Shown in pieces: positions 58,906 through 62,121 of a stretch of 64,000 bases of DNA. Every line of letters begins with the position of its first letter. Position 1 is the first letter of the stretch. The notes below the pieces were generated by a model, which saw nothing but the letters and a program-made list of their open reading frames with translations, was not told where the DNA came from and did not search any database. This DNA comes from Rubrivivax sp. Lineage in GTDB: Bacteria > Pseudomonadota > Gammaproteobacteria > Burkholderiales > Burkholderiaceae_C. The stretch lies in contig JAIXWM010000184.1 in assembly GCA_027491255.1 (NCBI GenBank), positions 30,669-94,668 of the forward strand. The letters run 5' to 3'. Position numbers and translations under genes: made by a program.

Positions 58906-59679
58906 TCAGGAATGGTTGTGGCCAGGGTGGTGGCCGTGACCATGGTGGTCGTGGTGGTCGTGACCGCAGCCGTGCGCGTGCTCGTGCGCATGATCGTGTT
59001 CGTGCTCATGCTTGTGGTCATGCGCAGGTTCGTGTCCGTGTGCATGAGCATGAGCATGCCCGTGATCGTGGCCATGCGCGCAGACCTGCCCGCCGCCGTG
59101 GTCGTGCCCGTGTTCATGCCCGTGGTGGTGGCCATGGCCGTGGCCGTGGGAATGGCCGCCATGGGCATGTTCGCGCTCGGCGCCATGGTCGTGGCCGTGC
59201 TCGTGCCCATGACCGTGTCCGTGTCCGCCCGAGTAGGCACCCCCTTCAGGCTCGAACGGCCCGGCCTCCTGCGTGACGATGAGGTGCATGCGCTCGAGCA
59301 TCTCGCCCAGCACGTGGTCGGGCTCGATCTTCAGGTGGTCGGGCTTCAGCTCGATCTGCACGTGCCGGTTGCCCAGGTGGTAGGCCGCCCGCGTCAGGTC
59401 GAAGGGCGAGCCGTGCTGCGGGCAGTGGCGCACCACCATCACCGGCTGGGGCGCAGCCTCCACGCGCACCAGCGAGCCGTCCGCGGCCACCAGCACATCG
59501 CCGCCGCGCACCGCCGTGCCGCGCGGCAGGAAGACCGCCAGCGTCCGGCCGGCGGAGTCGACGGCGTCGAAGCGGCTCTTCTGCCGCACGTCCCAGTCCA
59601 GCGCCACGGTGGTGGCACGCTTCAGCAGCACCGGCGCCAGGCCGCGGCCGGCGGGGATGAGTTTGTTGAGGGTCAGCAT
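58906..59679 (-). CDS. ureE: urease accessory protein UreE with very long His-rich C-terminus
   Basis: MLTLNKLIPAGRGLAPVLLKRATTVALDWDVRQKSR...LPRGTAVRGGDVL, then about 107-aa H/G/D/E tail. Confidence 0.95.
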   Translation of the reverse strand: MLTLNKLIPAGRGLAPVLLKRATTVALDWDVRQKSRFDAVDSAGRTLAVFLPRGTAVRGGDVLVAADGSLVRVEAAPQPVMVVRHCPQHGSPFDLTRAAYHLGNRHVQIELKPDHLKIEPDHVLGEMLERMHLIVTQEAGPFEPEGGAYSGGHGHGHGHEHGHDHGAEREHAHGGHSHGHGHGHHHGHEHGHDHGGGQVCAHGHDHGHAHAHAHGHEPAHDHKHEHEHDHAHEHAHGCGHDHHDHHGHGHHPGHNHS

Positions 59680-59772
59680 GGCAGGGGCCTGGTCAAAAAT
59701 GTCAGCGGGGCGGTATTATCACCTTTGTAATAACAGCGTCCGCCCGAAGACGCTGCTGCGAAAGGCTGCAAC

Positions 59773-59997
59773 ATGACCGCACTGAAACTCACCCAGATCG
59801 GCAATTCCGTGGGCGTCGTGCTGCCCAAGGAGATCCTGGCCCGCCTGAAGGTTGTCAAGGGCGACACGCTCTTCGTCACCGAAGCCGCCAACGGCCTGAT
59901 GCTGACGCCTTACGACCCCGCGCTGGACGAGCAATTGGCCTTGGGCCGTGAGTTCATGCGCGAGTACCGCGACACCTTTCACCAGCTGGCCAAGTAG
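59773..59997 (+). CDS. AbrB/MazE-type antitoxin
   Basis: MTALKLTQIGNSVGVVLPKEILARLKVVKGDTLFVTE swapped-hairpin AbrB motif. Confidence 0.92.
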   Translation: MTALKLTQIGNSVGVVLPKEILARLKVVKGDTLFVTEAANGLMLTPYDPALDEQLALGREFMREYRDTFHQLAK

Positions 59998-60381
59998 GTG
60001 GGCTGGCGCTGGATCAGCCGCCAGGCGCTCGAGCTTTTGCACGGGGAGAGCCTGGCCGAGCATGGCGGCGCTGCCGGCCTGCGTGACGAGGGCCTGCTGG
60101 AGTCGGCCCTGGCCCGACCCGTCAACCTGGCTGCATACGGGCAGCCCGATCTCGCGGATCTGGCCGCCTGCTATGGCGTGGGCCTGGCGAAGAACCATCC
60201 CTTCGTCGACGGGAACAAGCGCGCCGCCTTCCTGTCGGTCGGTCTGTTCCTGGCCCTGAACGGCCATCGATTGAGGGCGACGCAAGTGGAGGCTACCCTC
60301 ACGATGCTCGCAGTGGCAGCCAGTGACATGGACGAGTCCTCCTTCGCTGTCTGGATCCGGTCCCACCTGGTGCCCCGTTGA
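59998..60381 (+). CDS. Fic/Doc-family (death-on-curing) toxin
   Basis: KNHPFVDGNKRAAFLSVGLFLALNG Fic/Doc motif; starts with GTG immediately after antitoxin stop. Confidence 0.92.
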   Translation: MGWRWISRQALELLHGESLAEHGGAAGLRDEGLLESALARPVNLAAYGQPDLADLAACYGVGLAKNHPFVDGNKRAAFLSVGLFLALNGHRLRATQVEATLTMLAVAASDMDESSFAVWIRSHLVPR

Positions 60382-60393
60382 AGCACGCGGGGT

Positions 60394-62121
60394 TCAGAAC
60401 AGGAAATACCGCTGCGCCATCGGCAGCACGCTCGCCGGCTCGCAGGTGAGCAACTGGCCGTCGGCGCGCACGCTGTAGGTCTGGGCGTCGATCTCCATCA
60501 CCGGCGTGTAGGCGTTGTGCACCATGTGGGCCTTGCGCACCGTGCGGCAGCCGCGCACGGCCACCATGGTGCGGCGCAGGCCCAGGCGCTCGGGCACCCC
60601 GGCCTCGAGTGCGGCCTGGCTGACGAAGGTCATAGAGCCGCGCGCCAGCGCGCCGCCGAAGGCGCCGAACTGCGGCCGGTAGTGCACCGGCTGCGGCGTC
60701 GGGATGCTGGCATTCGGGTCGCCCATCGCGGCCAGCGCGATGAAGCCGCCCTTGAGCACCAGGCTGGGCTTGACGCCGAAGAAAGCCGGCTTCCACAGCA
60801 CCAGGTCGGCCCACTTGCCGACCTCGACCGAGCCGACCTCGTGCGCGACGCCGTGCGTCAGCGCCGGGTTGATCGCGAGCTTGGCCACGTAGCGCTTGAC
60901 GCGCGCGTTGTCGTGGCGAGCGCTGTCGCCGGGCAGGCCGCCGCGCTGCGCCTTCATCTTGTGCGCGGTCTGCCAGCAGCGCAGCACGACCTCGCCGACC
61001 CGGCCCATGGCCTGGCTGTCCGAGGAGAACATGCTGATCGCGCCCAGGTCGTGCAGGATGTCCTCGGCGGCGATGGTCTCGCGCCGGATGCGGCTCTCGG
61101 CGAAGGCCAGGTCCTCGGCGATCGACGCGTCGAGGTGGTGGCACACCATCAGCATGTCCAGGTGCTCGTCCAGCGTATTGACGGTGTACGGGCGCGTGGG
61201 GTTGGTGGAGGAGGGCAGCACGTTGGCCTCGCCCACCACCTTCATGATGTCGGGCGCATGGCCGCCGCCGGCGCCTTCGGTGTGGAAGCTGTGGATCGTG
61301 CGGCCCTTGAAGGCGGCGATCGTGTCCTCGACGAAGCCGCTCTCGTTGAGCGTGTCGGTGTGGATCGCGACCTGGGTGTCGGTCTCCTCGGCCACGGCCA
61401 GGCAGTTGTCGATGGCCGCGGGCGTGGTGCCCCAGTCCTCGTGCAGCTTCATGCCGATGGCGCCGGCCTCCACCTGCTGGCGCAGCGCCTGCGGCCGGCT
61501 GGCGTTGCCCTTGCCCAGGAAGCCGAGGTTCATCGGAAAGGCCTCGGCCGCGGCCAGCATCCGGGCGATGTTCTCGGGCCCGGGCGTGCAGGTGGTGGCG
61601 AAGGTGCCGGTGGCCGGCCCGGTGCCGCCGCCGATCATCGTCGTCACGCCGCTGGCCAGCGCCTCGTCGATCTGCTGCGGACAGATGAAGTGGATGTGGG
61701 TGTCGATGGCGCCGGCCGTGACGATCATCCCCTCGCCGGCGATGATCTCGGTGCCCGGGCCGATGACAATGTCCACGCCCGGCTGCACATCGGGGTTGCC
61801 GGCCTTGCCGATGGCGCAGATGCGCTGGCCGCGGATGCCGATGTCGGCCTTGACGATGCCCCAGTGGTCGATGATCAGCGCATTGGTGATCACGCAGTCC
61901 ACCGCGTCGCCAGCTCCGGGGCCGTTGACGCGCTGGCCCTGGCCCATGCCGTCGCGGATGGTCTTGCCGCCGCCGAACTTCACCTCCTCGCCGTAGCCGC
62001 CAGCCCGCAGCGTGAAGTCCTGCTCGACCTCGACGACGAGGTTGGTATCGGCCAGCCGCAGACGGTCGCCCACCGTGGGGCCGAACATCTCTGCGTAGGC
62101 GCGTCTTCCGATCGTGGCCAT
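60394..62121 (-). CDS. ureC: urease subunit alpha
   Basis: [42 protein letters not shown]. Confidence 0.99.

Follow-up and report, generated by a model that had tools for sequence, protein, structure and literature searches.

Apparent in situ exchange of two AbrB-Doc toxin-antitoxin types at the ureC-ureE junction of Rubrivivax and related bacteria

The window, a stretch of 64,000 nucleotides from a Rubrivivax sp. contig, was analyzed around the ureC-ureE junction, and the features located there are presented in Table 1. An open reading frame check of positions 58906-62121 placed abrB and doc on the + strand, flanked by ureE and ureC on the - strand, and confirmed the antisense AbrB-Doc module which the earlier note had described between ureC and ureE, along with its coordinates. 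The GTG start codon of doc was likewise seen to abut the TAG of abrB directly, with a spacer of 0 and in the same frame. The module start had been placed at 59714; this coordinate falls within the promoter and operator region (59690-59734), and the antitoxin starts at 59773. At the ureE end (window 58906-59240) a very long histidine-rich tail (GHGHGHEHGHDHG...) is encoded, which is probably nickel binding.

Table 1. Features of the abrB-doc locus and its urease gene flanks (positions in the window)
Feature	Position	Strand	Basis
ureE, operator-side flank	58906-59679	-	NF009762, 273 bits
Promoter-like site of abrB-doc, TGGTCA, 18 nt, TATTAT; -10 overlaps operator	59690-59719	+	Consensus scan, 1 found vs 0.1 expected in shuffles
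Putative operator ATTATCAC-CTTT-GTAATAAC, two octamers, degenerate copy of GTNATNAC-N4-GTNATNAC	59715-59734	.	Family consensus
Short inverted repeat AGCGTC...GACGCT in leader	59735-59754	+	Sequence
abrB antitoxin, AbrB/MazE fold, type A	59773-59997	+	74 aa; TIGR02609 doc_partner, PF04014; diagnostic residues
abrB codons 1-40, putative DNA-binding half	59773-59892	+	Tracks flanking ure genes; A/B signal absent
abrB codons 32-37, identity break in exchanged relatives; no breakpoint seen in the window itself	59866-59883	+	Mismatch maps G006/G007, G056/G057
abrB codons 41-74, putative toxin-binding tail, type A (F61, E64, Y65, T68, F69)	59893-59994	+	
doc toxin, type A (L14, S18, L79, G82, R91, Q96)	59998-60381	+	127 aa; TIGR01550, PF02661
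Fic/Doc motif HPFVDGNKR, Doc residues 67-75	60196-60222	+	Alignment
ureC, doc-side flank; convergent with doc, stop codons 12 bp apart	60394-62121	-	NF009686, 1040 bits

The antitoxin belongs to NCBIfam TIGR02609 doc_partner (69.4 bits, cut-off 55.9), which we take to be a family defined as a recurrent Doc partner, and the toxin, with its HxFxDxNKR-type motif, belongs to TIGR01550 DOC_P1 (54.5 bits, cut-off 38.65). Pfam agreed with NCBIfam for both proteins, the antitoxin being assigned to PF04014 MazE. No Phd family match to the antitoxin was obtained with NCBIfam or Pfam, setting it apart from the Phd fold of P1 Phd-Doc. A profile of toxin relatives identified P1 Doc (3k33) as the closest solved structure (E 3.1e-16) and also retrieved E. 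faecalis Doc (9vzc), and an AbrB gene lay directly upstream of Doc at each of the 80 database loci that the Doc profile retrieved. Using PADLOC models, Doc produced weak matches to PDC-M59B (26 bits) and others, and the antitoxin matched none. A Fic/Doc search of the genome from which the window derives recovered no second copy of the window Doc; three further Fic-domain matches were located in open frames of 351-393 aa. Within types, the dN/dS of Doc was 0.04-0.14, and values for Doc and AbrB in close pairs were mostly 0.02-0.14, indicative of purifying selection; the low within-type Doc values argue against chance open reading frames. The pair is almost certainly an AbrB-Doc module. A suggestion that an AbrB-Fic pairing would be non-classical is not supported, as AbrB is the commonest Fic/Doc neighbour (Makarova et al., PMC2701414) and a composite mazE-doc TA, TasA-TasB of Bacillus thuringiensis pGI1, was reported in 2006, with TasB toxicity deduced from cloning (PMC1626090).

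At most loci, tandem octamers GTNATNAC with 4-bp spacing were observed 10-25 bp before the abrB start codon. All 12 fixed operator bases were matched in 40 of 115 loci, compared with a shuffled mean of 6-7, and likewise in 23 of 30 further ureC-ureE loci. The family tandem octamers provide the conserved operator of a type II AbrB-Doc TA system. The window copy is more degenerate, and farther from the start codon, than is usual in the family, with an operator-to-ATG distance of 38 bp versus 12-23 bp in most relatives. By analogy with the family, AbrB would bind this octamer operator. Just one promoter-like site was found upstream of the window abrB in a consensus scan; a bidirectional promoter at the palindrome that would also serve ureE was considered and set aside, since this motif is found at non-ure loci too.

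The distribution of the module was determined in a genus sample of 81 genomes and a family sample of 301 genomes, in which Doc was present in 38 and 90 genomes, respectively. In 20 of the 81 genus genomes the module was found next to ureE at the ureC-ureE junction, in antisense orientation. Seventeen of these copies lie directly between ureC and ureE, two (G009, G039) remain beside ureE at a doc-to-ureC distance of 4-5 kb, and one (G025) is beside ureE on a contig which does not hold ureC. Some relatives lack the module: the junction comparison revealed empty ureC-ureE gaps of 8-132 bp in 14 genus genomes, 6 of which carry the module elsewhere. In G071, whose ureC is the most similar to that of the window (95%), a type A module survives as broken ends, and G043 retains a broken type B doc start (the two types are described below). 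Outside the genus, 81 Doc loci were checked, of which 30 were within 6 kb of ureE, every one antisense to it, and 26 were within 600 bp of ureE, representing 18 genera. Named records of Polaromonas, Rhodoferax and Comamonadaceae show the same arrangement. Since it occurs in approximately 19 genera, the local insertion event first proposed is not supported. Phage records contained distant Doc only (at most 41% identity), and Doc from plasmid records was mostly below 60% (best 65%), so that no nearby plasmid or phage donor was found in these records.

A role for the module in stabilizing the urease locus, or in regulating urease by antisense transcription across ureE, was raised in the earlier note. 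It would be consistent with the antisense placement within an operon, with an abrB operator approximately 10-100 bp from the ureE start, and with a scan of the window in which no intrinsic terminator was detected between doc and ureC. However, loss or decay of the module with retention of urease is frequent, as in G071, G043 and the empty junctions, and the reverse case is provided by G036, which has no ureC or ureE match and keeps a module among ureF and ureG remnants; the stabilizer idea is therefore weak. The octamer operator motif also occurs at non-ure loci and is thus not ure-specific. We consider a urease-related role unlikely. In G036, AbrB-Doc is located between a ureF C-terminal fragment and the joined ureG ends, in the same sense (L087 5734-6852).

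In an AbrB+Doc tree, the copies split into type A, the window type, and type B with support of 100/100 (99 with more rows), and each type included ureC-ureE copies as well as copies elsewhere. On a ure-gene tree of 24 loci, type A needed 8 changes, 7 of which were imposed by supported branches; shuffled labels needed as many, and a single clade was rejected (AU p 1.2e-60). When 52 occupied loci were used, A/B needed 16 changes, at least 14 of them forced, where shuffled labels gave a mean of 17.8, and on a recA+gyrB tree 10 changes were needed, at least 9 of them forced. The recA+gyrB tree also supported the ure-tree sisters G014/G064, G142/G330, G300/G210 and G266/G340 and the grouping of G006/G007/G008. 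Both types were found in five other sampled genera, opposite types were present in sister genomes with flanks 96-99% identical, and no genome in the genus and family samples held both types together at one junction. As A and B are scattered on both the ure and the recA+gyrB trees, what has switched is the module itself, rather than its host or the urease genes. The two types are best read as deep, ancient specificity types at one site.

Type-diagnostic positions were identified at AbrB 51-71 and at Doc 8-18, 76-82 and 91-100. The combination R65/E82/D96/Q18 was carried by 41 of 41 B copies and Y or F65/G82/Q96/S18 by 52 of 56 A copies, with no clear A/B hybrid seen among them. At AbrB 64 and Doc 91 the charges are opposite in the two types, with E/D and R/K, respectively, in A and K/R and E/D in most B. 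The window-type A pair is AbrB E64/Doc R91 and the B pair is K64/E91, and the lone B copy with AbrB D64 carries Doc R91. In P1 and Salmonella Phd, the Doc-binding residues are approximately 52-73 (PMC9207808), and in the E. faecalis antitoxin toxin binding is assigned to residues 52-79 and DNA binding to 1-55 (PMC13034048). By sequence, the diagnostic residues would fall in the expected antitoxin-toxin interface. Together with the charge reversal, the residue pattern suggests two incompatible specificities, and we lean towards types A and B being incompatible, without cross-neutralization.

To locate the change of type, pairwise alignments were inspected by eye for breakpoints. Between G006 (type B) and G007 (type A), ureE is 98% identical and the ureC 3' end 99%. 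The operator and AbrB codons 1-36 are 97-100% identical, after which identity falls to 81, 53 and 55%, with 63-75% in Doc; mismatches are dense only in the stretch that begins at AbrB codon 37 and ends shortly after doc. The corresponding dS was 0.82 for Doc versus 0.17 for ureC and 0.09 for ureE. This profile was repeated in G014/G064, G009/G056-G057, G251/G140-G328 and G113/G323-G245, and the exchange pattern recurs in approximately 10 sister groups. Because many of the genomes are metagenome assemblies, single A/B pairs could be misassembled, although G006 lies on a 598-kb contig. Two type A genomes, G056 and G057, differ by 1 mismatch in a tract of approximately 970 bp that starts at AbrB codon ~33, spans doc and ends in ureC, compared with 5-7% outside it, and dS was 0.01 for doc versus 0.15-0.22 for ureC and ureE. 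Both the tract and the low doc dS point to a recent exchange whose left border matches that of the A/B pairs.

Over all pairs, the type effect was -0.1 to 0.2% for AbrB codons 1-40, which follow the flanks, and 24-30% for codons 57-72. Among A x B pairs, AbrB codons 1-33 correlated with the flanks (rho 0.75, permutation p 0.0005), whereas for the AbrB tail the correlation was not significant (rho 0.24, p 0.08). Whole-Doc identity also correlated with flank identity in these pairs (rho 0.67), a result which probably stems from the most distant rows. A type effect was absent from Doc codons 33-40 and 105-120, and the exchanged unit may thus be mosaic or saturated. These comparisons suggest that the type change begins inside abrB near codons 33-37, with the operator and the predicted DNA-binding half following the host and the predicted toxin-binding tail and doc following the type. 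It is very probable that A and B were exchanged in situ at the ureC-ureE junction.

The mechanism which we propose, and regard as probable, is that a type II AbrB-Doc module has spread, and been exchanged at its resident site, through homologous recombination, with neutralization domain and toxin travelling together as one matched cassette. Judging from the family, the AbrB half of the antitoxin would bind the promoter-overlapping tandem octamer operator and repress the pair, the C-terminal helix would neutralize Doc, and Doc, by homology, would act as an EF-Tu kinase. The module has no mobility gene and is placed antisense at a widely shared, old site between ureC and ureE; its spread, replacement and loss would occur mainly through homologous recombination in the conserved neighbours. 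The recombination arms would be ureE, the operator and the abrB 5' half on one side and the ureC 3' end on the other, such that an exchange between A and B replaces the antitoxin neutralization tail together with the toxin and leaves the resident operator and DNA-binding half in place. Moving as a unit, tail and toxin would stay matched as a cognate pair. The likeliest reason for the site being favoured is that conserved ureE and ureC offer long homologous arms. More tentatively, the junction may represent a long-lived two-type polymorphism of mutually incompatible TA specificities, common to several genera and under negative frequency-dependent selection of the kind seen at self-incompatibility and bacteriocin-immunity loci, with the recombination break preferred between the antitoxin halves.

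Both types also occur elsewhere in genomes, and the genus has empty junctions alongside copies at other sites, as would be expected were the junction an insertion hot spot at which A and B modules arrived independently many times. We consider this improbable, as the junction copies all have one orientation and similar boundaries, and the operator and AbrB codons 1-40 are common to sister genomes across types, which is unexpected from fresh insertion. In addition, sister A/B pairs share synonymous sites in the abrB 5' half and operator but not in the tail. Differential loss in each lineage from an ancestral tandem A+B array would account for both types at one site in the same orientation, but given that no genome has both at the junction, and that near-identical abrB 5' halves in sister A and B genomes are unexpected without recombination, such hidden paralogy is very improbable. 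Although ure clusters are in general transferable, movement of the ure genes between genomes with a vertically inherited module is scarcely credible, as recA+gyrB backs the ure-tree sisters and A/B is equally scattered on that tree. Repeated convergent interface change in place, with which the concentration of type signal at interface positions would agree, is just as hard to credit, given that G006 and G007 differ along the entire doc gene, at silent sites as well (dS values above).

The AbrB-Doc pairing is already known; what is new is the presence of two deep junction types whose distribution follows neither the tree of the neighbouring ure genes nor that of recA+gyrB. TasA-TasB and the TIGR02609/TIGR01550 families share with our module a widely distributed arrangement in which an AbrB/MazE-like gene is directly upstream of, and translationally close to, a Doc-like toxin, but a fixed ureC-ureE site, two specificity types and in situ exchange were not reported for TasA-TasB (PMC1626090). 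P1 Phd-Doc (3k33, 3dd7) likewise has a Doc with a Fic-type motif, tandem operator sites and an antitoxin composed of an N-terminal DNA-binding part and a C-terminal helix neutralizing Doc; it differs in its Phd antitoxin fold, in contrast to the AbrB/MazE fold and chromosomal module here. The E. faecalis Phd-Doc (9vzc) has an AbrB-related DNA-binding region and a toxin-binding tail resembling the split described here, but a single palindromic operator and another sequence family, and the passages on it in PMC13034048 describe no allele exchange. A chromosomal TA system of E. coli (Mine et al. 2009, via PMC7167474) similarly occupies a fixed intergenic site with empty and decayed versions in relatives, although the review passages on it describe no swap between two cognate types with a breakpoint within the antitoxin gene. 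In antitoxin domain partner swapping (PMC10440598), antitoxins also combine domains with different toxins, but it is the toxin family which changes, as opposed to alleles of one family at one chromosomal site. Literature on urease with TA or Doc yielded nothing on a ureC-ureE AbrB-Doc arrangement, and no direct precedent was found in that on TA allele exchange, gene conversion and balancing selection. A TA pair without a mobility gene is here common to approximately 19 genera at one site, with exchange readable from near-identical flanks. The breaks recur in one part of the antitoxin gene, which gives an uncommon insight into the spread of selfish pairs and into how their two partners remain matched. 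Such exchange would show how toxin and antitoxin can change together, avoiding a lethal mismatch, and in matched A/B pairs the specificity switch is small enough for direct testing (AbrB 61-71, Doc 14-18 and 79-100).

Additional genes were observed at several of the loci. In PBB3 a GNAT acetyltransferase gene (PF00583) is located between doc and ureC (L121 5396-5896, - strand); a similar open reading frame occupies this place in Rhodoferax (L114 5387-5854, - strand), from which it appears that the junction accepts further genes. The distance between doc and ureC in G009 and G039 contains open frames of approximately 1150-1170 aa (L053 5087-8515, L054 4712-8233). Away from the junction, at a distance of 6.8 kb from ureE, the type A module of G017 adjoins a gene for an ABC-transporter ATPase, with urt-like genes downstream (L078 5072-7567). 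Non-junction modules of G012 (type A, L075 6360-7733) and G013 (type B, L076 6343-7782) are both beside a UDP-glucose dehydrogenase gene, and this neighbourhood may be another shared site at which both types occur. In the genome of the window itself (G000:C62:31653-35852), gyrB matches were obtained in two pieces within one 1448-aa frame, separated by an insert of approximately 570 aa near model position 495, which is probably a GyrB intein.
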